A stretch of DNA of 64,000 nucleotides, taken from Nannochloris sp. 'desiccata' (lineage: Eukaryota; Chlorophyta; Trebouxiophyceae; Chlorellales; Chlorellaceae). Position numbers and translations under genes: made by a program. Each line of letters opens with the position of its first letter. Within the stretch, counting starts at the first letter, position 1. The DNA is taken from NCBI GenBank assembly GCA_019044685.2, contig JAGTXX020000007.1:124001-188000 (forward strand), given 5' to 3'. The notes below the pieces were generated by a model that saw only the letters and a list, made by a program, of their open reading frames with translations, did no database searches and was not told the origin of the DNA. Below are positions 20,827 through 38,128 of this stretch, one piece after another.

Positions 20827-22071
20827 CTATTTGTACCATCCACTAGTACAGTCCTTAATCTTCACACTCTTCCCTTTGCCTGGAAGTAAAAAACACATGC
20901 TACTACTCTTCACGTGCGTCCACGCTTTGCATGCTGCGTTCGCTCTACATGCATCGCAGCATTTATACCCTGCGCTCACTTTCAATGTCTTCAACGCCGC
21001 TCCAGTTCCAGAATAACATGTCCCATATTCAACAGTATTCATTCGTACAGGTGGTGTTGTACCACGTAAATTTTGGTACGACAAAATATCTTCAATCCAC
21101 GTTCTCCAATAGGCAACACTGGTGTCTACGTTTATATTTTGTCCATCAATTTTGCCGCAACTGCTATGGTCACCATAGCCGTAGCTCGTCACAGCGATCT
21201 GTACAGGCTTTTTTCCTGGTCGTTCAAGGACCGTAGGCCCACCAGAATCACCTCCACAGCTTTGTATTAAAGGGCTTTTAGCACCACCAGTGCATATATG
21301 ATCTTTTTCAATCGGCTCTCCCTCAAATAGCTCATTATAAATCGCCATACATTGTTGTTTATTATATCTAAGTGCGGCGTAGTATAGATAGTCTGGCATC
21401 TTCCCGCTTTCCAGCTGTCCCCAGCCAATTAGAGTCAGTTCCTTCACACCAGCAAGGCTAGTGGAAGCGGAGGCCATAGTGACTGGCTTGCTTACTGAAG
21501 AAGGGACTGCAGTGGTTAAGCCTACGACCGCAATGTCGCCGTAGAGACCATAGCCATTACCTTTTTCATAAACTTCAGGAATCCAAACTCCTTTGACCCT
21601 GTATTCCAGCATATCGTCATCATACCAGTAGTTGGATCCAATATAAATGGCTGATTTGCTCGAGCGACTCCAGACGCCGTCCTCATAGACACAGTGTGCG
21701 GCAGAGAGGGCTGCACGAGGGGAAATTAAAGAGGCGGTGCAGACGCCTTCGGGATCAAAATAAGCTACGAAAGGGAATTGGCCTTTAGCTGCTCTTTGGC
21801 CGTTCGCGACACGTCCAGTGGCTACGCGTTCTTCAGTAGAAGTAGTAGTTCGATTGCTTGTGCTTGTTGTCAGCAATTTTCTTCGATCAATCTTGGTGGA
21901 AATTCCAACATCCTTTCGGAAGATAGCAGCAGGGTCTTCGGAGGAAATTGGGCGAATAGGGAATTTTTGGATGTCTTCAGATCGGAAAATGTCGGGTCTT
22001 GCTGCCTGGGTGGTTTGAATTACAAGGGCAATGAACACCAAAATAGTTGCAAAATAAATTTGAAGCGACAT
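20827..22071 (-). CDS. Secreted S1 (chymotrypsin-fold) serine protease with C-terminal PAN/apple domain
   Basis: The best start is the ATG at 22071, because it opens a signal peptide (MSLQIYFATILVFIALVIQ, then TTQA). Further upstream the frame is open but lacks a convincing leader. Product is 414 residues in one exon. A propeptide of about 65 residues precedes the activation region RVANGQRAAKGQFP. Triad residues are in SAAHCVYED (His), YGDIAVVGL (Asp) and SCGGDSGGP (Ser). The residue six before the catalytic Ser is Gln, not Asp, so trypsin-like Arg/Lys preference is unlikely. The last ~70 residues hold six Cys (GTCYSG, YKCCDACRANAACKAW, SMCFLL, KDCTSGW), in line with a PAN/apple adhesion module. 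Role could be wall or matrix remodelling or defence. Confidence 0.88.
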   Translation of the reverse strand: MSLQIYFATILVFIALVIQTTQAARPDIFRSEDIQKFPIRPISSEDPAAIFRKDVGISTKIDRRKLLTTSTSNRTTTSTEERVATGRVANGQRAAKGQFPFVAYFDPEGVCTASLISPRAALSAAHCVYEDGVWSRSSKSAIYIGSNYWYDDDMLEYRVKGVWIPEVYEKGNGYGLYGDIAVVGLTTAVPSSVSKPVTMASASTSLAGVKELTLIGWGQLESGKMPDYLYYAALRYNKQQCMAIYNELFEGEPIEKDHICTGGAKSPLIQSCGGDSGGPTVLERPGKKPVQIAVTSYGYGDHSSCGKIDGQNINVDTSVAYWRTWIEDILSYQNLRGTTPPVRMNTVEYGTCYSGTGAALKTLKVSAGYKCCDACRANAACKAWTHVKSSSMCFLLPGKGKSVKIKDCTSGWYK

Positions 22072-22424
22072 GAGAGCCACTCTTGAAAATGAGCTCTCAA
22101 TCCGCTGTGGACGATCGAAATATATAACTGTTAATTTAAACAACAACTCCGCATCAGAGAATCCTACAATTGTAGGCGCCAATATCTCTTTCAGATCTGA
22201 CGGCGGCCACCCAATGAGAATTGTCAGGGGATATTTAAGGCAGCTCTGTGCCCTCTCTATTTACATAGCGTGATGGAACAAGTTACATCGTCAACAAAAA
22301 CAACGGATCGTGTGCTGCAATTGTGTAGGTCAAGTAAAAAAAGAAAATAAAATGCTACCTAATAACTTAAAAATGAACCGCCGCCACGGCCGCCACCCAG
22401 CTCAACGGAACTATACTAACTTGT

Positions 22425-22583
22425 TTATGTATACTTGATCACCAGGATGATAGCCACAGCAACACATGCCAACAACAACGTAATCAACAGGCAGCATAAA
22501 CATCTACGAGATCTTTTCTGGAATCTTTTAGCCTGTGTTAAGTGCGTAACGCCCGTCTCGATATATCCACGAGATAATTGGAC
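22425..22583 (-). CDS. Alternative last exon of the syntaxin gene (distal SNARE end plus second membrane anchor)
   Basis: This 53-codon open exon begins right after a polypyrimidine tract and TAG acceptor (CGACTAG|GTCC) and ends in TAA. It encodes VQLSRGYIETGVTHL, then TQAKRFQKRSRRCLCC, a 20-residue hydrophobic helix and the tail VIKYT. The proximal exons of the syntaxin gene encode VARSAEFVQSGVTHL, then QSAKETQKKTRKWICC, a hydrophobic helix and VKGF. Lengths match residue for residue through the SNARE end. Joined to exon 2 (end at 23670, phase 0) it gives a 304-residue protein. It lacks the internal intron found in the proximal version. It is either a working alternative terminal exon or a relic of a duplicated gene end. 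Splicing must be shown from RNA. Confidence 0.7.
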   Translation of the reverse strand, partial: VQLSRGYIETGVTHLTQAKRFQKRSRRCLCCLLITLLLACVAVAIILVIKYT

Positions 22584-22703
22584 CTAGTCGAAAGAATAGG
22601 GAAGAAAGGGAGGGGAGGGAGGGAGAAGGTAAAAAATGTCAATTGCTTAATTGATTGGTATAAAATCACGGTCCCATGCTGTTGGAGCTGACTTATTTCC
22701 CAT

Positions 22704-22717
22704 GAGAGAGAGAGAGC
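22704..22717. repeat. GA dinucleotide run
   Basis: Short GAGAGA tract followed by alternating CG, between the two syntaxin terminal exons. Confidence 0.7.
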
Positions 22718-23095
22718 GCGCGTGCAGAGAGAGGAAGGAGAAGAAGAGCATACAGAAGCAGAACCTATTTATTCAAAATTATTTTGGGCAATTTTTAAAT
22801 CTTTCATCAAAATGGGCAATATGGTAAAGATAAAGCAAATATAGTGATAATAACAAGTAGCAAAAACTGGAAGGCAGATCTTCATGCTGGGTGGCGGTGA
22901 AGGGGCAGGCAGTTGGGGGCCCAAAACGGAAGTAAAGTAAACAAAACAATGGACTACGGATAATACAGTAATTTAATCAAAGCATTATACCTAATGCCCG
23001 GCTTTATATCCAAAGTGGCAGTAATCTTATCTATTATCAAAATGGTCGAGAACGGCAAGTAAATACTAGCACATAATTTTCCACTTATCCAACAA

Positions 23096-24576
23096 CTAAA
23101 ACCCTTTGACGATGCCCACCGAGGCAATAATAATTGCAATAAGCACCACCAGACCCAGAATAATCGCACAGCATATCCATTTACGTGTCTTCTTTTGTGT
23201 TTCCTTGGCAGATTGAAGATGAGTGACCCCACTTCAAAAATAGGGGAAGGAAAAAAAGAAAGGGGGAAAAGGTTAGTAAAAAAAAAACAAAAAAAAAACA
23301 ATTAAAATTATCAGAAAACTGAAAACAACCGACGATAGACTGACCTTTGAACGAATTCTGCACTCCTTGCAACCTGTGCGAGCAAAAATTAAGAGTTTAG
23401 AGAAATGCATTGATAAAAGCAGGTGGTTAAGACGCATAGGGACAGCAAACTGGGCAGTAGAATGGGCAAGGTGGGGGTTCTTCTCTAGGTACAGAACAGG
23501 GGGCGACAAAAGAAAAGGATGGTCCTCCCAAGAAGCAACTGAAGAGCTCTCAAAAAGAGTATAAATTAAAAAATTATAATCCCCCTCCTCTTTCTTGGTT
23601 TCTCTCTCACACCCACCAAATAAAGATCATCCCCACCCAAGAAATAAAGCTTCTCAAAATAATTCTTACCTGTGCTTCAATATTATCTATCATTTGACCC
23701 TGGGCTTCCACTAACACAGCCATATCTAAAAAAATCTGATGCAATTCCATCAACGATGCCTCTAGTTCCATGACTGCATCCCTTCTTTCTCTAATTTCTG
23801 CTAGAGTATCCATCACATAGCCACGTCCCTGTTCCAGAATTGCACGTTGGAATACACTCTCTGCTTCCCCGTTTTCAATCATGCGGTCTATCTCGTCATC
23901 TGAGGCGTGCTGTCCAGTGACTGTATACACTCGTCTTTCTACGACTTCCCTGTATTCTCTTTGGACACGTGTACGTAAGCTTTGGAACTCCCCCATGATT
24001 TCTTTAAGTTTTTTCTTTAATGCAGCAGTAACTGCAGTACGGGTACGTTCAGAAGCGGTGCCTGGACCGGAGTTCTTCTTTTTTAATGCGGCTTCATTCG
24101 ATTTGTCGAGATCTTGTAAAAGGCGTTTGATCTGGTCTGCAGCTTTGGAAATAGCGTTGGCTTCTTCTTGCATTTGACCACGTAAGACGTGCATATCAGC
24201 GCTACGGGTGACGGTTTTACTGCGTTCGTGGGCTTCTTCAAGGGCGTTGTGGTGGTTGCGAATGTCGGCCAGATGGCCTTTGATTTGAGCTACTTGGGCG
24301 AAGAATTTATCCATCTCAGGGTCTGCTGCTGCCATGACATCTGGCTGGGCTGGCGCAGGGGCTTCAATGTCGCCAGCACGAGCATTTATAGAGCCTCCCT
24401 GTGGAAAAAATTAGAAGTAAAGGTGGTTGGTTCCAGAGGGGAGGCGGGCGGCACAAGTGGCAGCAAGAGTAGTTGAGAAGACTGGTGAGGGCGGGCGGGA
24501 AAAGTGCTAAAGCTTTGTTTGGATACAAATTGGGAGATTGTATACGTACCTTGACAAGTCCTAGGAGGTCATTCAT
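23096..24576 (-). CDS. Qa-SNARE syntaxin (plasma-membrane SYP1-like)
   Basis: Target-membrane SNARE for vesicle fusion. Four exons (24576-24550, 24398-23670, 23373-23345, 23231-23096) join in matching phase to 306 residues. The start MNDLLGLVK matches the usual MNDL beginning of SYP1-type syntaxins. Residues ~40-165 form the Habc helices (FFAQVAQIKGHLADIR). The SNARE motif follows, with the zero-layer Gln region IFLDMAVLVEAQGQMIDNIE. A basic juxtamembrane segment (KKTRKW), a C-terminal helix (AIILGLVVLIAIIIASVGI) and a four-residue lumenal tail end the protein. A second candidate terminal exon lies 500 bp downstream (22583-22425). The gene is head to head with alpha-SNAP, whose product disassembles SNARE complexes, with 583 bp between the start codons. 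Confidence 0.92.
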
Positions 24577-25159: not shown

Positions 25160-26366
25160 ATGTCTGAGTTTATGTCTCGTGCCAAGGGCTATGTAGCCCA
25201 GGGCGACCGTAAACTGCTCTCATTGGGTTGGTTTAGCAATAAATATGAAGAAGCAGCAGAGTTTTTCGAAAAAGGAGCCAACCAGTTCAAACTTGCCAAA
25301 GCATGTAAGCTAGAATGCATAGTTGCATTGTTCTTTCGTGGGCGGGAGGCGGACCACGGTTTTTTCTTTTTTTCTTTCTGTCGGCCGACCTGGTGCCCTG
25401 CCGCCACACCTTGCCCCCTCTGTTTCTTTTTGGTAATAACTAACTTTACTTTTACTACAGGGAAAGAGGCTGGCGACACCTACATCAAACTCGCTGAAGT
25501 TAACATCAAATTGGAAAGCAAACACGACAGCGCCACAGCATGGGTAGAAGCTGCCAAAGCCTATCAGAAATGTGACCAAAAGAAGTCGGTTAATTGTTTA
25601 CAAAAAGCCGTCTCCCTGTACACAGACATGGGTCGGCTTGGCATGGCAGCTCGCCAGCTACGTGAAGTCGCTGAAATTCTTGAAAAGGAAGACGACTCTA
25701 GGCCGGAAAGCTTATTATTCTATGAACAAGCCGCAGATCTTTTTGGCGCTGACAACTCCACCGCTGAAGCAAGCAAATGCCTTTTAAAAGTAGCTCAATT
25801 CTCTGCTGAAGCAGAAAACTACCCTAAAGCAATCGGTATCTACGAACAAGTCGCCCGTGCTGCTGCAGATAACAATTTACTTCGATTTTCTGCAAAAGGC
25901 CACTTGTTACATGCCGCTTTGTGTTCTTTGTGTTATGCCGGCCCGGCAGCCACTCGTGATCGTTTAGAGAGGTATAAAGACATTGACGTCAATTTGGATG
26001 GGTCAAGAGAGAGTGTTTTAGTAGAGAGTTTGGTGAATGCCACTGAAGAAGGGGATCCTGAGGCATTTACTGCTGCAGTGGCTGAGTTTGATGCATTGAC
26101 ACGACTGGATGCTTTCAAAACGGCGCTCTTGGTAAGTATAAGATTTTATATATTTTCTTCTAGTAGTATGATATGCAGAGCGTGTTTGCTTGAGTATTTA
26201 TGGTTTATCAAGATATGGTTTGGGTACTAGTTTAGAAAATAATTGTTATTCAAATGGTGGAATTAACTTGCTTTCTTTTCGTTCTTTCTTTCTAATTTTG
26301 TTGCAGTTGAGGGCAAAGCGGAAGTTGACGGAGGCACCTCAAGATGAAGAAGAAGATTTGACTTAA
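25160..26366 (+). CDS. Alpha-SNAP (NSF attachment protein)
   Basis: Adaptor that binds SNARE complexes and recruits NSF for their ATP-driven disassembly. Three exons (25160-25304, 25461-26131, 26307-26366) give 291 residues, the family's usual length. The first intron (156 nt) is in frame without a stop, so unspliced reading adds a spurious Phe/Cys/Pro-rich segment. Splicing restores AKAWKEAGDTYIKLAE, the expected repeat. The fold is TPR-like helical throughout (YEEAAEFFEKGANQFKLAK, SKHDSATAWVEAAKAYQK, YTDMGRLGMAARQLREVAE). The last exon supplies the acidic end APQDEEEDLT, close to the family's Leu-containing NSF-stimulating tail. It pairs functionally with the divergently transcribed syntaxin. 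Confidence 0.93.
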
Positions 26367-28717: not shown

Positions 28718-30468
28718 TTAATTCGAATTAACTAAGCATTGCCCCTGAGCATCACAATCTTCCATCATCTGTCTATTCCACACAAATTCCCACCTTGCTA
28801 ACCATTTTTTTCCATCAGCTAAGCCAGCAGTATCCAATAAAGAAGCCAGCCTCTCCGAATGGGGACGAGCCCTTGCCACAAGATCTTTATACTGTGACAA
28901 TTCCATTGGCCAGCCTCCTTGCTTTCTGCTATTCAAATTCTGTAGTACAATGTCAGGTAAATTAGGATCCATACCTAGAAATACTTTCAATTCCGTAACT
29001 ACCCTATTAGGATCCTCTTGAAGCTCCTCAAATTGAATGATTTTTATTTGGTGCGTCGGGAAATGTTTTAGCCAGCCCTCCAGAGCCTCGTCGTAATGGC
29101 CATGTCCACTGCGTTGTTGCTCCCCGTGTTCTTGGAAAAATGGACTTAAGCAATCGTACAAGGCTAAACCATCAAAACACCCTTTGCCTGTATGGTTCTT
29201 CTCGGTATACATCCGAGAGTACGAGATCATTCGGCTTATCGGTTCGCGTAAAAATAGTACGATTTTAATCCAGGGAAAAAGATTATAAAGCTCGGAAGCG
29301 AGAGGTTCTCCCTTTTGGGCGTAATCTACAGAGGCGTCAAAGGTGATGTGCTCTAATCCACCGGCAGCGGCTTCTTCGAGTCGTAAAAATTCTCTCATAT
29401 ATTGTGACGGTGATTTTGCATAGCAATTCATGCTATTTATATCAGATTTGCATTGGGTGAACCAGTGAGACTCTTTGCGTAAACCCCACATGTACTGAGG
29501 GTGATGTCTAAAATAGGCATTGACTGAAGTTGTAGCGCATTTCTGCCACCCAGCGAGGAAAAAATGCGGGAAATTGAACCGAGTGCGCCCGTTCAAATAT
29601 TCATGAGCTTTTTTAACGCAGTCAAACGTATGGCATCGACGTAGATACTCTAGGGCTGTGCCTAGGTCTGTATTTGCGCCTTGTGGTAGGTCCTCCATTT
29701 CTTCTGCTTTTATGTCGTAATGAACGCGATTGCCCAAGTACCTGTGTGCTTTTTGAATACACTCAAAACGGCGGCATCGACGTAGATACTCTAAAGCTGA
29801 TGTAACATCTATTTCTGCACCTTCTGGAAAATCTTCCATTTCTTTTTCTAGCTTCGATTTATTTTTATGTTTTACTCGTTGCTGGAGCGTAGCTTCTTCT
29901 TCTATGATATCTCCTTTTTCAACTTTCTTTCTTTTCAACATGTCATCGTCAGCCGTGGTGATCTTTTGACTAAAATGTATAACTTCCCTATCATCGTCAT
30001 CGTTAGCACTACCTTGGCTTGCCTTTAATTTCATTTCTTTATCGTGTTTCTTTGCAGAAAGCGCGACCTGGAAGCCATCAGTTTTCTTGGCTGTTCTCAT
30101 TGAACGACGGCACCCGCCACTGCTGGTACAATCAAAAGAATCATCAAGATGTGGTCCCGTGCTAGAAAATGCGCCTGTCGATAGTCTGCAGTGATCAGTT
30201 GTGATGGATATACCGTGAGAAAAGGGGGCCTTGAAGTTTTAAAATAAAGAGAAAAGGCGAGATGGAATTCTTACAGTGCAATTATACTGAAAGACGTGAC
30301 ATAGCCCACGATTTCGATCGTCCGTCTCGATTTCCTTCTGCATTCAAGTGGAGCATATTATGGTTATTATTGCGCAATGGAATTCTACATTGAAACGAAT
30401 CGGATTATTAGTTGCTCTAAAAATAATTACCTCTTTCGTTTCATTTTGTTGGCCGCCAAAGGCGCCAT
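28718..30468 (-). CDS. Golgi-type carbohydrate sulfotransferase A (CHST15-like), with duplicated stem module
   Basis: Transfers sulfate from PAPS to a glycan, by family. Three exons (30468-30431, 30337-30275, 30185-28718) join in phase 2, phase 2, to 522 residues. Type II topology: basic N-terminus MAPLAANKMKRKRRKSRR, then one anchor helix (IVGYVTSFSIIALLS), a charged stem and the catalytic domain. PAPS-binding 5' loop: FPHFFLAGWQKCATTSV. KESHWF follows, and the 3'-phosphate motif is LREPISRMISYSRM. Ending: EDCDAQGQCLVNSN. A stem block, EMEDFPEGAEIDVTSALEYL with its following RRCRRFECIQKAH, recurs about 47 residues later as EMEDLPQGANTDLGTALEYL and RRCHTFDCVKKAH. The other three copies have this block once. 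The donor LPHF/KEPHW pattern resembles animal GalNAc4S-6ST. The glycan substrate is unknown. Confidence 0.9.
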
Positions 30469-30687
30469 CTGCACAGTGGTTGAAACGCTAGACGCTTGTC
30501 CAGATCTATATTATCGTGTAGATATCATAAACCAAGCCGATTCATAGTTTTAATTATTGCATGCTTTTTCAGTTGAGGGAACACAAATGCACAATTTCAA
30601 AAAACTGCTGGCCATACTGCCAGCTATGGCATATTAAAGTTGTGCACGTCAATACTGGCTATGCATTAACATGTCAATAAAGACCTG

Positions 30688-31100
30688 CAGTGTTTTTATT
30701 AAGGATTTTGGGGTGACGAAAAATTTCGGCGAATTTTCCTCCTGTCGCAAATTTTCGGCGAATTTCTGCCCGGCGATTTTCTGCTCAAAGCTGGCCTTGC
30801 CGGCGGCTCAAAATTTTCAAAGTCTGGAGGGGCGCCTGTGTAACTAGTAATTATACAGAAAAGAAGAAGCAATATGAATCAGAAGCTCATAAACTGGCAC
30901 CTCGACGCTCTTTTGCTTTCCACGCAACAAATGCCAGCCAAAAGTTGAAATTTTGAAAATTTTACCTGCAGTTGATCCGGCGAAATTTGTCGCCGTCGCT
31001 GCGCGACGGCGAAATTTTGCCGGCGAATTCTAGGCTTCAAAAAATTTCCGGCGAACGAATTCGGCGAATCCCGGCGAATCGCCGACTAATAAAAACACTG
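30688..31100. mobile_element. hAT-type MITE (non-autonomous DNA transposon)
   Basis: 413-bp element with perfect 14-bp terminal inverted repeats, CAGTGTTTTTATTA at the left and its reverse complement at the right. It is flanked by an 8-bp direct target duplication AAGACCTG (30680-30687 and 31101-31108). TIRs beginning CAGTG and an 8-bp duplication are hallmarks of the hAT superfamily. Eight copies of CGGCGAA lie in the subterminal regions (two near the left end, six near the right), as expected for transposase-binding sites. It has no coding capacity. It sits between sulfotransferase genes A and B. Confidence 0.88.
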
Positions 31101-31394
31101 AAGACCTGATTGACAACGTATTTTAGCCTTCAGGAGCTGCGTCCATCCAAACTTTCTTCCTCGTAGTAGACCACTGGAGTAAACTTGGCAGAAGACTTCT
31201 GAACTTCAGGAAAAGAGCTCTTTTTGACAAATTTATCTGCCGCTAGGAGCGCCTAGATAACAGCATTTACAATCTATACTGATACGTACGTTAAGCTTGC
31301 ATCTTGAAACTTGGTAAAAATCTTGAAATAGTAGCTTGAAAGTGAGAAGAAAGAAAAAGTAACCCGCGTCAGTATTCTTAATTATATCTCACAC

Positions 31395-33148
31395 TTATCT
31401 ATTTGAATTCACTTCACATTGCCCATCAGCATCGCATGATTCTTCAATCACTTTATTCCACACGGATTCCCATCTTCCCATCCATTCCTTCTCATTTTTA
31501 ATCCCCTTGTCACCCAACAACTTGGCCACCCGCTCGGCCCCAGGTCTCACCAAGGCAATTAAACTTTGATATTCTTCTAACGTGAGAGGATATCCACCAC
31601 CACTCCTTCTAGAATTCACATTCCTCAAATCTTCTTGCACAGGCAATTGCGTATCCATGCCTAAAAACACCTTTAAATCGTGTAAAACTCGTTGATCGTT
31701 TTCTTGCAATTCTTCAAATTGAATCACATGTACCTGTTCAGCAGGAAAGGTTTCCAACCAAGCTTCCAGAGCATTGGCATATACTGCGCTTTCTCTACTT
31801 AGACCTTTAGATAAGCATCCATAAATGGTCTTGGGAGGCATGCACCCTTTGCCCCTAACATCTTTTATAGTAAACATTCTAGTATAAGAAATCATTCGAG
31901 AGATAGGCTCTCTCATCATCATGACAATTTTCAACCACGGGAACAAATCATGAATCTCTTTAGATAACGATCTTCCCTTCCAGGCGTAATCTACAGAGGC
32001 GTCAATCGTTGCTCTTTCCAGGCCACCGAGGGCAGCGTCTTGAATCCTCAAGAACTGTAAAAGATAATTCCGCAAGCTTGGAGCTCTACAATTAGTATTT
32101 TTTCGACTGTTTCTGCACACTGTAAACCAATGAGATTCTTTGGAAACGCTCGGTAAGAACTGAGGGTGACTTCTTAAATGTGTATTCACCGATGTCGTTG
32201 CACATTTTTGCCATCCAATTAAGAAGAAATGTGGGAAGTTAAACCGAGTACGACCATCAATTTCATAATGAAGTCTCTTAATGCATTCATAGTTACGGCA
32301 TTTGCTCAGTGCAAAGAGGGTTGCACGTAGTTTTGGGTCGGTGAGGTTGCTGTTCAGGACCATCTGTTTTGATAGCGCTGCTCCCATATTAGGCGACATT
32401 AATGGATTGTTTTCATTATCACTATCCTCGCTATTATCTTCATTATCAATAGTGTCATTCTTATAATCATCAAAATAATCGTAATCTTCTTCGTCATTGT
32501 AATCATCACCATCATTACTGGTGGGTTCGGTACTGGCTGCAGTTGAGGTTGGGAGGGTAGTTGAGGTGGTGGTGGTCAATGATTTATCATTATCAGATCT
32601 GGATGAATTTGATGGATATAGTTCTGTTACTGGTGATGTCGTGCGTTGCTCCTTTGCATCCTTTTCTATAGAGGATGAGGATGATGATTTTCCAGGGGTT
32701 GGCAGTGGCGACGGCGGGTCAGGGTCCAGAGTTGCTTTGATGATGACCTTCGCAGGGGATGCAGCGACCTTCTTGGTGTTTTGTTCTTTGTTTTGGGATG
32801 AAAAAGGAAGTAATCCAGGTCTGCATACGTGATGATATGAAGGGAGAAGTTAGAAAAATGAAGGAGAGAGAAAAATTGCCAAAACTATGAAGCGGGTGAT
32901 TAGATATAGTTGTGGTGTAAAAACGTACCTAGCCCATAAAAGAGACAAGACAAGGAGACCTCCTACCAAGACTAAAATCACTTGCCATATTATACGCCTG
33001 CAAGCGTGGGTCTAGACTTTCAAAAAGCTGCTTTTGTTGGCGAATTGAAAAATTGTACAATGAGGTGGTTGGCATTAAAGAGTATATTTGTCTACCTGGA
33101 TGCCGTCCCGCGCTCCTGTGGGCCCGGTTTCGCACTTCTAAAGTCCAT
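31395..33148 (-). CDS. Golgi-type carbohydrate sulfotransferase B (CHST15-like)
   Basis: Second gene of the array. Three exons (33148-33096, 32997-32929, 32820-31395), both introns phase 2, give 515 residues. N-terminus MDFRSAKPGPQERGTASRR is followed by the anchor helix IIWQVILVLVGGLLVLSLLW. The stem is very acidic and Asn-rich (NDEEDYDYFDDYKNDTIDNE). Catalytic domain: FPHFFLIGWQKCATTSV (5'-PSB), SKESHWFTVC, then MREPISRMISYTRMFT (3'-PB). It ends ESCDADGQCEVNSNR. The exon layout (short cytoplasmic exon, anchor exon, large catalytic exon) is the same as in gene A. It has no intron inside the catalytic region, unlike genes C and D. Confidence 0.9.
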
Positions 33149-33357
33149 TGGTAAATGAAACAGCTATTAATATGGCTTTGGGATATTTAGCAGGGTGGAA
33201 TACAGCTAAATTTTAATTTAGCGAATGTAGCTCCAAACCCTTTGATCCTTCATTTATTCTCAGCGTATAGGACGTTTATGATCATTTACTATCTAAAAAT
33301 AAAATATAGTGCAAAATTGTTTTATTACCAAGATCTTGTAAGCTTCTGCAACTGCCT

Positions 33358-33411
33358 TGGTCGGTGGAAAAAGGCAGTGCCTTAGGCACTGCGGCAGCAT
33401 ACTTTTCCGAC
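33358..33411. repeat. Imperfect hairpin
   Basis: GGTCGG(TG)GAAAA on the left pairs with TTTTCCGACC on the right, with an inner palindrome GCAGTGCCTTAGGCACTGC. It could be a degraded MITE core or a small RNA hairpin. Nothing in the sequence decides this. Confidence 0.45.
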
Positions 33412-33607
33412 CACGCTTTTTTAAATTCCATTCTTAGGCTTGAACCCTCAATGAAAAAGTGATCGAGTCGCTCATTCAGTCAGCTGGTACAATTTGCAAA
33501 GCCGGATAGGGCTGTCCTCCTTTCTAAAAGTAGTAGTCACTGGTCCTATAAAGTCAACAACTACCTGAATTTGGGGGCAGGTAATCAAAACATGAACGCA
33601 TAATAGA

Positions 33608-33637
33608 ACACACACACACATATATATATATATATAT
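33608..33637. repeat. CA/TA compound microsatellite
   Basis: About six CA units followed by about eight TA units. Confidence 0.85.
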
Positions 33638-33745
33638 TAGGGTCGCAGTACGTAACTAAACAGAAAAAGCCCGACGCTGGCGGCGGCAGCTGCAAAACCA
33701 CCGCTACAAATTTTCCTCATTGAATTAGATTCAATTTCATTTTCT

Positions 33746-35447
33746 CTAATTACTATTAATAACACATATTCCATTATCATCACACGTCTCTAAATTCTCA
33801 TCCCACACCTTCTCCCACCTTCCCAACCATTTCGTCTTATCTCCCAATCCCTGCTCCGACACCATACTTGCAATCCTTTCACTGTCCCACCGAACTTGCT
33901 CTAACAACCTTCTATATTCTTCTATGGTCATTTTATATCCACCAGATTTACGTAAATTGGTGTTTTTGAGCTCTTTTTTAGGTAAATTTGGATCCATTCC
34001 TAAAAATTCTTTTAATCTCCTCATTACCGACGCGGGATCCTCTTGAAGCTCTTCAAATTGAATAATATGAAATTGAGAAGCAGGAAAGTATTGAAACCAT
34101 GATTCTAGTGGAACTGAGTAATTAGAATTCGCTTCTTTGGGATCTGTTGGAACGGGGGGGGGGGGGGGGGGGAGATTAGGGGAGAGGAAGGAGAAAAAAA
34201 AAAAAAAAAAAAAAAATCAACACAAAGGTGACGACGTCAGCATGAAAAATATAAGAATAAAAATTATGGTCAACACCCCAATCTCCCTCTCTCTATTTAG
34301 AGGGTATCATATCTTACCTAAATGATATTGTAGGCAATCGAACATTGATCTCCCTGCTAAACACCCTTTAATTTCATGTTCCCTTTGAGTATACATCCTC
34401 ACATATGAAATCAATCTCGACAGGGGCTCCCTCATAATAACCACTAATTTGATCCAGGGAAATAAATTATACAACTCAGGGGCAATCGAACCTCCTTTCC
34501 ATGCATAATCTACCGATGCGTCGACCGAAACACGCTCCAATTTGGACTGTACGGCGTCTTCAAGGCGCAAAAATTCGTGAATGTAGTGGGATGTGTTGTG
34601 TGCCATACAATTTGTATGATTCCAAAAGTGCTGGCATGTAGTGAAGTAATGGCTTTCTTTCACTGGAGATGGGAGATACTCTGGGTGTGATCTTAAGTTT
34701 AGATTCACTGACGTTGTAGCGCATTTTTGCCACCCAATGAGGAAAAAATGCGGAAAATTGAATCTGGAACGGCCGGCAAGGACGGTGTGGGCTTGTTTGA
34801 TGCATTCGAAGGTCTCGCAGTAGGAGAGCTGCTGGAGAGCCGAATCGAAATCTACTGGAGTAGCAGTAACCACTTTCTCTTCTTCTTGTATCTGTTGCTG
34901 CTGTTGTTGCTGCTGCTGTTGGCCTAGTAGGCCATCAGCTCCTCTGCCGTCAAGGCTGCCTTCTACTGCTACTGCTTCTGCTTCTGCTCCTCCTCCTTTT
35001 TGTGATGAAGTAACGAATTCTAATCGATCTCCAGATAGTAGATCGTCTTCTCTTTCAGGTAAATGATGTGCGCTAAAGTTTGGTCTGCATAGAGAAAAAG
35101 AAAAGAAAAACAAATTGAGCAGAGGCGGGAAGGAATGCCACAGCAGCACTAATGCTGTATAAAAATCTTACTTCGTTGCCAAGACAATGGAAATGAGGGC
35201 CAACGGTAACATCACTTTGATGATACTTGATCTCCATTTCCTGAAATTGTAGAAGAGGTAAAGAGTGAGCGAACAATTGATGTACGTGCAGCGGTGATGA
35301 CTTTTAGACACTTGCTGCAAAGAATTCTCACCTTCCAGGTGTAGGACGCATCCTTCCTGGTGTGAATCGTGCCAAGGGAGACGGCCTGATTGGAGTCCTG
35401 CCCATCGCTGCCTTGCTTGCTGTTTTCAACGGTGTTTTCATCATCAT
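33746..35447 (-). CDS. Golgi-type carbohydrate sulfotransferase C (CHST15-like)
   Basis: Third gene of the array. Four exons (35447-35332, 35240-35172, 35084-34318, 34143-33746) give 449 residues, with introns in phases 2, 2, 1. The N-terminus MMKTPLKTASKAAMGR is basic. The anchor helix is IIKVMLPLALISIVLA. The stem carries a poly-Gln run coded by CAG/CAA triplets. Catalytic domain: FPHFFLIGWQKCATTSV, VKESHYFTTC, IMREPLSRLISYVRMYT. The last intron splits the catalytic region after CLQYHL and has an extreme tract before its acceptor: 23 T then 19 C on the coding strand, interrupted by a mixed stretch. Ending: ETCDDNGICVINSN. Apart from length it matches the other members closely. Confidence 0.9.
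34154..34216. repeat. Homopolymer pair inside intron
   Basis: A run of 19 G (34154-34172) and a run of 23 A (34194-34216) on the + strand. Read on the gene strand, this is a pyrimidine tract before the last acceptor of sulfotransferase C. Confidence 0.9.
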
Positions 35448-35897
35448 GAATTCAGTTTAAAATTAACGATCAGAGAAGCAGGAAGCAGATTTTGTCTGAT
35501 GCCCGCTATGCATCACATATTATGTATGGCTACTAGAGTTTAGTGATCTGATATGATGAGCACAACGACCTCTTCTAGCATTTGACTACGAGTAGAGAGC
35601 TCTTTCCTCAACCTATTCAAATTGAAATTGAAGCAGACAGGCTAGGCTGCACATGCTCTACCTGTGCTCTATTTCTAACCTCAACCATATGCATAATTAT
35701 TAAACAGGTAGGCCTAAAAAGGATACAGTTATTCAAAATTATCACTCAATAAAAACTATAAATATCCTAGAAACCATGCATCCATCAAGCAAGCAACCGC
35801 CTCTAACCAACTTGAGTCAACTCTCTAAACTAACTAAAATAATCATCTTTAACCAGCTAATTACCACTCACTAGCTATGTTATTATGATATTAGAAT
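35448..35897. other. Intergenic region in sulfotransferase array
   Basis: 450 bp of AT-rich sequence between genes C and D. No gene or clear repeat is seen. Confidence 0.55.
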
Positions 35898-38128
35898 CTA
35901 ATTCGAATCTATACTACACTCTTCTTCGAATGTAGGACATTCGTTCAACCACTCATTCCAGACAGATTGCCATCTCGACAACCAGGCCGTCTTATCTGCT
36001 AATCCATACCGATCCAACATCTCAGCTGTCCTTTCTGCATCTTGTTTAACCATACGCACTAATCGCATGTATTGGCCACGCCCCATTGGGTATCCACGCC
36101 CTTCTCTGCGAGAATTCACGTTTGCAATTGTGCGATCAGGTAGATCGACATCCATGCCTAAAAAGGCTTTTAAGTCATAAAGAACTTTTTCAGGGGTTTC
36201 TTGGAGTTCTTCGAATTGAATGACATGGAGTTGGTCGGTAGGAAAAGTGGTGAGCCAGCCCAAGAGAGCATCTGAATAATTAGAATTGGCTGCACCAGGA
36301 GCTGCAGGAAAGAGAGGGAAAAAGAAAAAAGATTAGATTTCAGGGGTTTTAAGTAAACACAGTAGCAGAGAATAAATTTTATATTAGAATAGAATAAAGG
36401 TACGCAATCATTTAGAGTTAAGGATAACAAGAATAAGAGAATGGGGCAAAAACAAAATATATGAAGAGACGGTGTGGGCTGGAAAGCTCAAGGAACACTG
36501 AAATGAAGCAACAAAAATCATCTCTGCTTCAAAACTTACTCAAATGAGGTCTAAGACATGTAAACAACGACGAGCCAGGACTGCACGCCTTCCACTCCTG
36601 GAACGTACTTTGTGTATGCATTCTTGTATACGAGATCAATCTAGATATTGGCTCTCTGATCATAATCACAACTTTAATCCAAGGGAACAGGCGATACAAT
36701 TTCCTGGCAAGCACCCCACCACGCCCAGCATAATCAGCAGACGCGTCCAAAGTAACCAGCTCCAAACGAGAGGCAACGGCATCTTCAAGGCGCAAGAAGT
36801 CTCGGAGATATTCCGCCTCAGTTTGTGGCAAACAATGAGGTGCCTTTAAATTGTTTTGACAGACACTAAACCAATGTGGCTCCTTCTTAACTCCGGGTAA
36901 ATACTGAGGATGGTACCGAAGGTACGCATTTACTGAAGTTGTAGCACATTTTTGCCATCCAATTAAAAAGAAATGTGGGAAGTTAAACCTGGTACGACCT
37001 TGGAGACGATCGTGCGCTTTGATAATACAAGCTAAAGTTTGGCACTTGCCCATCCATCCAAGGACTTCTTTAACATCCTCATCTTGCGCTTTACCAAATA
37101 CCATATCTACAAGGCCGGTGTTGTTGAGAACCCCACTTCCAGGGCTTTGTTTAGCCTCCATTGACAAGGAGATATCATCGCCAGCTTGTTCTACTCCATC
37201 CTGCTCATCGCCAGCATCCAGACCTTCCCCAGAGAAGGCTGCCCCTCCTGTAGGATCTTCATCATCATTGAGTTCCCCACCATCATCGCCGTCTATTCCA
37301 CTCCCAGCAGCAGCTTCTTCAAAGGCATCCAAAGGGGAGTCGTGATCTCTTGGTACGAAGCTTGCATCACCACCCTCGCTATTATTATTTTCTTGATTGG
37401 TATCATTGCTCATATCTTCATCGTCTTCAGGCCAGGCAACGTCATCACCTACACGACCGTAATCCGATTGTTTATTTGCAGCACTATCGTTATCGTTATT
37501 GCTATCATTTGCTGGTGCATAGTCAACGTTATTGGTCCCATCGCTGCTGGTACGGCCCCCTTCACCGCCTTTGTTGACATCAAGTGTTGGAGGGAATAAA
37601 TCTTCCTCAAGCTCGTCTTCTGAGATCGCTTGAGTATGAAGCAAGTCGGAAGAGTCTACAGATTGGGTGGTGTGCGTGTTTGCTGTGTCTTCAACGGCCG
37701 CTCTAGTGTCTTTAGTATAGCTGTCGCCATCCAGCATCACTGAGATTGCTGAAGACTCTCTTCTGCGAAAGTGATTGAAAAGCGAATATGGGTATAAAAT
37801 CAGCAAATTTGAACATGAAGAGGCGCGTAAAATATAGCGCCGAGCTTAGAAGAAACACTTGTACTGGCCTTTTCAACGATGATTGATTTCAGCAAGAAGA
37901 GTTTTTGGCACAGTTGATTAAAGAATTGCACGTTGCTTCTTACCTAGATAGTGCATATGCCACTATGGCTAGAGGTGCTACAAGCAAGAAGAATTTAAGA
38001 GCAGACCTCCTGTAGAGCAAAAATAAAAGAGTCATGAGCCAACTGACAGCTAAAACTGAATCGGAGCAGTATGCATGTGCACAAAGAACCTACCTCTTGG
38101 TTTGCGGTGTCCTATGATTCTTCATCAT
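35898..38128 (-). CDS. Golgi-type carbohydrate sulfotransferase D (CHST15-like), long acidic stem
   Basis: Fourth gene of the array. Four exons (38128-38094, 38009-37944, 37762-36540, 36301-35898) give 575 residues, with introns in phases 2, 2, 1 at the same places as gene C. N-terminus MMKNHRTPQTKRRSALK, then the anchor FFLLVAPLAIVAYAL. The stem of about 200 residues is dominated by Asp, Glu, Asn, Gly and Ser (NDDEDPTGGAAFSGEGLDAG), longer than in the sisters. Catalytic domain: FPHFFLIGWQKCATTSV, KKEPHWFSVC, MIREPISRLISYTRMHT. KEPHW matches the animal GalNAc4S-6ST form more closely than the KESHW of A and B. The end is ECPTFEEECSIDSN. Confidence 0.9.

Follow-up and report, generated by a model that had tools for sequence, protein, structure and literature searches.

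We analyzed a stretch of 64,000 nucleotides from the genome of Nannochloris sp. 'desiccata' (the window), which is part of contig C7 in a genome of 21.55 Mb and 18 contigs. The minus strand of the window contains a four-exon syntaxin (Qa-SNARE) gene, that encodes a 306-residue product with a first C-terminal end, anchor A (Table 1). This end (exons 3 and 4) reads VARSAEFVQ-S-GVTHL...IVKGF, and the N-terminus MNDLLGLVK of exon 1 is common to two of the relatives described below (P0010 and P0068). Exon D lies 512 bases downstream of exon 4 and comprises an open frame of 52 codons closed by TAA, in which a single frame reads VQLSRGYIETGVTHL...VIKYT. The first-pass annotation had placed a second, complete end exon at this position, directly after a pyrimidine tract and a CTAG acceptor. 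Both the exon, open to its TAA and in phase 0 with the exon 2 donor at 23670, and the acceptor are borne out by the sequence, and the two-ended layout of the syntaxin gene at the sequence level is confirmed.

Table 1. Exons and signals of the syntaxin gene, in window coordinates
Feature	Position	Strand	Content
Exon 1	24550..24576	-	Start codon, MNDLLGLVK; donor AAG|GTACGTAT; based on sequence and translation
Exon 2	23670..24398	-	Habc domain and SNARE motif through layer +2; donor CAG|GTAAGAAT, phase-0 junction IEAQ|V
Exon 3	23345..23373	-	29 nt; opening part of anchor A with layers +3 through +5
Exon 4	23096..23231	-	Remainder of anchor A, with layers +6 through +8, then linker, transmembrane helix and tail IVKGF; stop TAG
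Exon D	22425..22583	-	Whole alternative anchor (B), with layers +3 through +8, a basic linker, CLCC, the transmembrane helix and tail VIKYT; stop TAA
Exon D acceptor	22584..22636	-	Long pyrimidine tract and CTAG (CGACTAG)
Two ATGTAA motifs past exon D	22261..22287	-	Candidate poly(A) signals

The syntaxin gene (24576, minus strand) is oriented head to head with an alpha-SNAP gene (25160-26230, plus strand; Pfam SNAP 277.8 bits), with 583 bases between the likely start codons. Their products are parts of a single fusion-and-recycling pathway, and the two genes may have a promoter region in common. A trypsin-like protease frame (20827-22260, minus strand; 82.8 bits) follows immediately downstream of D and has a C-terminal PAN-like stretch that scores slightly under the cut-off. 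The window also contains a chlorophyll a/b-binding protein gene and, at 28718-37845 (minus strand), four reading frames with the common motif RFNFPHFFL.GWQKCATTSVN; the three of these that were checked match sulfotransferase families, one of them under the curated cut-off.

Possible splicing to either end

Exon 2 joined to either A or D reads through to the stop codon of that end, yielding proteins of 306 aa (A) and 304 aa (B), so that two complete in-phase anchor ends are found behind one shared front. The joins of exon 3 to D and of exon 2 to exon 4 are frameshifted, with stops after 276 and 268 residues, and intron phase by itself therefore enforces A or B. The proposed mutual exclusivity of the ends holds at this level: A needs exons 3 and 4, D replaces both, and mixed joins are out of frame.

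Only 0.34% of the 8553 AGs in the window are preceded by a pyrimidine content equal to or higher than that of the D acceptor. By the same measure the acceptor of exon 3 is ordinary (10%), that of exon 2 good (1.5%) and that of exon 4 strong (0.12%). The switch would most likely lie in the ordinary acceptor of exon 3 competing with the strong one of exon D. From the exon 2 donor at 23670, splicing to the 29-nt exon 3 and then to exon 4 would give anchor A, and splicing to exon D would give anchor B.

On the minus strand between 22060 and 23600, TGTAA occurs only past D (at 22287 and 22265); between exon 4 and D it is absent and a single AATAAA is present at 22773. We take ATGTAA/TGTAA to be a chlorophyte poly(A) signal. 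Past 15 usable ORF stops TGTAA is about twofold enriched (14 in 7500 nt, at 10 of the 15 stops), which is only a hint of such a role. As TGTAA is found only after D, A transcripts may end near the AATAAA at 22773 or may carry D in their 3' UTR.

Domains and exchanged residues

Both joined proteins score far above the cut-off of the Pfam Syntaxin model (168.2 and 167.2 bits; cut-off 26.7). For Pfam SNARE the scores are 54.7 bits for joined isoform A and 39.1 for joined isoform B (cut-off 26.8), and exon D by itself reaches 26.5 bits, slightly under this cut-off. With either end the protein has Habc and SNARE domains over the curated cut-offs, a zero-layer glutamine and a C-terminal helix, as in syntaxin-type Qa-SNAREs. 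Named matches among the listed relatives include syntaxin-131/132, and the PDB matches are syntaxin-1A and Sso1; these matches point to a SYP1-like Qa-SNARE of the plasma membrane.

The zero-layer glutamine is the Q in VEAQGQMIDN that aligns with the Q in VESQGEMIDR of syntaxin-1A (residue number, layer scheme and SNARE layer numbering as we presume them to be). In the alignment to syntaxin-1A the junction residue V is at layer +3, and everything from there on is exchanged: SNARE layers +3 through +8, linker, helix and lumenal tail. The layer residues are V S V G L A (anchor A) and V S I G L A (anchor B), identical at five of six positions, versus 3/12 at the other SNARE positions between them (Fisher p 0.03). 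The inward-packing SNARE faces are therefore retained, and a large part of the outer surface differs. The first-pass annotation had called the 15-residue end of the SNARE motif the same in both; the two stretches are alike, with 7/15 residues identical, but not the same. Its description of a different linker, a Cys-rich start of the helix and a different tail in D agrees with what we find (KRFQKRSRRCL, CLCC and VIKYT, versus KETQKKTRKWI and IVKGF in A). The linker is basic in both ends. Cysteines are limited to CC in A and comprise CLCC plus one more in B. The 19-residue hydropathy of the helix is 3.25 (A) and 3.32 (B), with runs free of D, E, K, R, H, N and Q of 24 and 22 residues, respectively. 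The A and B proteins would thus have the Habc domain, the first SNARE half and the inward-facing layers in common, and would differ in the SNARE surface of layers +3 through +8, in the juxtamembrane linker and its cysteines, and in the helix and lumenal tail.

Conservation of exon D and relatives of the two ends

A profile built from 97 algal and plant syntaxin tails was run over the six frames of the window. It recovered exon D with 62.3 bits (E 3e-18) and exon 4 with 61.7 bits, and the next-best match scored 6.8 bits (E 0.62). On the family tail profile A reaches 78.0 bits versus 62.3 for D, a low score for a family tail (3 of 103 are lower, P0010 included) that is explained only in part by D having been held out.

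A and D share 19/48 residues and 48.6% of the DNA over 144 bases. Only 4 of the 19 shared residues are encoded by identical codons, which fits an old duplication. We simulated neutral decay in 20,000 runs by randomly mutating copies of A to the DNA identity of D, with the simplification of uniform mutation along one branch. An open frame survived in 16.5% of the copies, and in 0.17% it survived together with the helix; an open frame with 19 or more identical residues was seen in 1/20,000. We also considered the identity of A and D by codon position (23, 27 and 20 of 48 at positions 1, 2 and 3) as proof of selection, but dropped it as too weak, because third positions are likewise above chance (20/48). 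On the basis of the simulation and its pairing with P0010 (see below), D is probably an old anchor exon under selection.

The higher scores of A on both the Pfam SNARE and the tail profile would fit a D that survives only as a relic or as a cryptic exon, so that the duplicate end is no longer spliced in and A is the sole used anchor. A search with the B tail (residues 250-304), in which four proteins shared words and none matched at E <= 10, would fit this as well. We regard this reading as unlikely, given that a neutrally mutated copy so rarely keeps frame and identity, that the acceptor tract of D is among the most pyrimidine-rich of the window, and that a similar tail is found in Picochlorum-type transcripts.

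At E <= 0.001 the D peptide has no match in the genome other than D and exon 4 (two candidates, each of them scored), and the SNARE family profile gives 13 matches, two of which are exon 4 and D. The genome may have a single plasma-membrane syntaxin, although the remaining profile matches could be SNAREs of any type. If D were the end of a separate second syntaxin gene, with its front lost or elsewhere, a parallel might be seen in Chromochloris, which has two syntaxin models numbered near-consecutively (9245 and 9249). This is very improbable here: D starts at an exon junction with an acceptor and without a start codon, and no second copy of exon 2 was found in the genome beyond itself and a 34% match on contig C11 (12 candidates scored).

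As relatives we used all 136 different proteins from the best 120 of 1094 matches to isoform B and the best 120 of 851 matches to P0010 (relatives are referred to by P numbers). The best named relatives among the listed matches include proteins of Parachlorella, Micractinium, Chlorella, Auxenochlorella and Coccomyxa, presumably all trebouxiophyte green algae. The 136 include no spliced protein from this species or from its nearest kin, and relatives were not found in the viral contigs or the genome contigs scanned (prokaryote genomes). In 27/136 listed relatives an unspliced ORF leaves the family right after IEAQ, IENQ or IQAQ, and therefore an intron at the IEAQ-type junction is widespread. 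The next residue was V in 27 of 27 cases, a count that is partly built in, as the junction pattern demanded V or D at this position. Three of the 136 (P0121, P0131 and P0132) lack the junction motif and were left out.

P0010, a cluster of MMETSP transcripts with 12 members, carries an intact B-type tail. The first 44 tail residues of P0121 (Picre1, which we take to be Picochlorum renovo) are, by eye, those of P0010, as is much of the body, and we therefore refer to P0010 as Picochlorum-type; the P0121 gene model is broken in places and its overall identity to P0010 is 66%. In a tree of 104 tails (without P0040, P0115 and P0118, and with P0052 entered as two pieces instead of intact), D pairs with P0010 (support 99/92), and A groups with Auxenochlorella, Prototheca, Helicosporidium, P0037 and the first tail of P0052 (96/92). 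A tree of 38 chosen tails likewise recovers D with P0010 (97/89), and A with Auxenochlorella, Prototheca and Helicosporidium (94/95, not starred); the neighbors of the D-P0010 pair differ between the trees. The tail trees are based on 55 columns, and A and D are both long branches. On the 38 tails, A and D as sisters were rejected by the AU test (p 0.018), a comparison named after the 104-tail tree had been seen, and a clade of A, D and P0010 was not (p 0.098). In a body tree (45 rows) the window gene is placed beside P0001-P0003, P0011, P0013 and P0023, and all of these, together with P0005 and the Picochlorum-type rows, make up a clade of 14 (100/99).

The B-type tail of P0010, together with the strong acceptor of D and the ordinary one of exon 3, would also be consistent with B as the used end and A on its way out. 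We hold this to be quite unlikely, since both exons of A are intact and A falls, in the tail trees, with annotated sequences from Auxenochlorella, Prototheca and Helicosporidium.

Tails also differ at the same junction in other algae. Pair statistics excluded P0040, P0052, P0107, P0115, P0118 and P0122 (the spliced set lacked P0107 and P0122 to begin with), and all pairs with the window's own two ends. Body identity reaches 95% or more (gapped) in 11 protein pairs, whose tails average 92% identity, with a minimum of 51% for Coccomyxa sp. Obi P0022 and C. subellipsoidea P0025. These two are identical over the final 45 body residues (45/45) and share 21/48 tail residues (ungapped by segment 7/15, 7/15 and 7/18), and judged by their sequences they switch tails at the same junction as A and D; KRYFKRSRRCMC of P0025 resembles KRFQKRSRRCLC of B. 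P0071 and the Ostreobium protein P0078 have bodies that are 86% identical, with 44/45 identities in the last 45 body residues and 7/15, 7/15 and 7/18 in the tail. The gene model P0052, of which the body groups with Chlorella and Auxenochlorella in the body tree, has two tail domains in series (285-320 and 321-366), the first cut inside the helix and the second beginning with VARALEHVEQG. The simplest reading is an annotation error, in which the predictor probably placed two alternative ends one after the other. The tails in these three cases may also stem from exon shuffling, gene conversion or paralogues. Algal gene models may, as a warning, display one end only or fuse two.

Two further candidates were dropped. 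P0032 and P0043 (88% body and 53% tail identity) do not switch at the junction, because their first 15 tail residues are alike at 13/15, and P0122, a Lactuca model with two tail matches, consists of two whole genes that were fused.

Interpretation and known systems

The sequence, the splice phase, the constraint on D and the relatives give good support for a Qa-SNARE gene with two in-phase anchor ends that exclude each other. We consider it probable that this is one SYP1-like syntaxin gene with two alternative C-terminal ends, A and B, that are both used in this species. A single syntaxin gene would then most likely yield two proteins with different partners, sorting or lipid preference.

More tentatively, and with the balance somewhat against it, A and B might be an ancient pair long kept in trebouxiophytes, with the B type in this alga, Picochlorum and Coccomyxa and the A type in the relatives of Chlorella. 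One ancient B clade of P0025, D and P0010 (p 0.29) and a Coccomyxa-only clade (p 0.30) were neither demonstrated nor rejected. If the ancient pair were real, annotations would show one end or the other per species, and a single-celled organism with just one plasma-membrane syntaxin would have carried both anchors from a time before these lineages diverged. Such a pair would be convergent with animals and dicots and would offer a clean natural test of the effect of the anchor by itself.

The first-pass annotation had named animal syntaxins as precedents. Animal cases do exist: in C. elegans, alternative terminal exons 8a and 8b of unc-64 give different membrane anchors, as in the alga; the switch is controlled from the last intron by UNC-75, and in locomotion the B form failed to substitute for the A form (PMC4946901). 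The alga differs from unc-64 in that the SNARE half changes too, besides the anchor. For vertebrate STX3A/STX3B, transcripts and tissue specificity have been shown (PMC11476516). Within the green algae, mutually exclusive exons were verified in cyn23 of Volvox (PMC4378016). Among publications judged largely by their titles and abstracts, with thin coverage of subscription journals, we found none on an algal syntaxin with two ends.

In dicots, the alpha and beta forms of SYP132/SYP13II were reportedly the subject of earlier studies by Pan and by Huisman in 2016. The dicot event is younger than the split between dicots and algae. Splicing of dicot SYP13II produces an alpha and a beta form, and the surveyed mycorrhizal dicots have an extra exon 14, with the exception of Aquilegia (PMC7145992, PMC9158536). 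SYP132 of Medicago and other mycorrhizal dicots, a plant gene and not an animal one, is the closest precedent: like the alga it has a green-lineage Qa-SNARE gene with an extra last exon, and the two isoforms arise via alternative splicing or polyadenylation (PMC7145992, PMC9158536). In Medicago, silencing of the alpha form harms arbuscules and a deletion that forces the beta form only leaves them normal (PMC7145992, PMC9158536); the two ends therefore need not differ in function, for instance by serving two membranes or two lipid environments as the first-pass annotation had proposed. As the extra exon of dicot SYP13 is ascribed to an unequal crossover within dicots (PMC9158536), the algal case would be of independent origin.

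An independent case in a unicellular alga would separate anchor function from tissue specialization and, for a gene body without a second copy found, would suggest that splicing, and not duplication, diversified plasma-membrane fusion here. The algal gene, as read from its sequence, adds to the known alternative-anchor syntaxins STX3, unc-64 and SYP132. It differs from SYP132 in that one exon replaces two, and from both SYP132 and STX3 in that it is known from sequence, whereas both isoforms were shown in Medicago.
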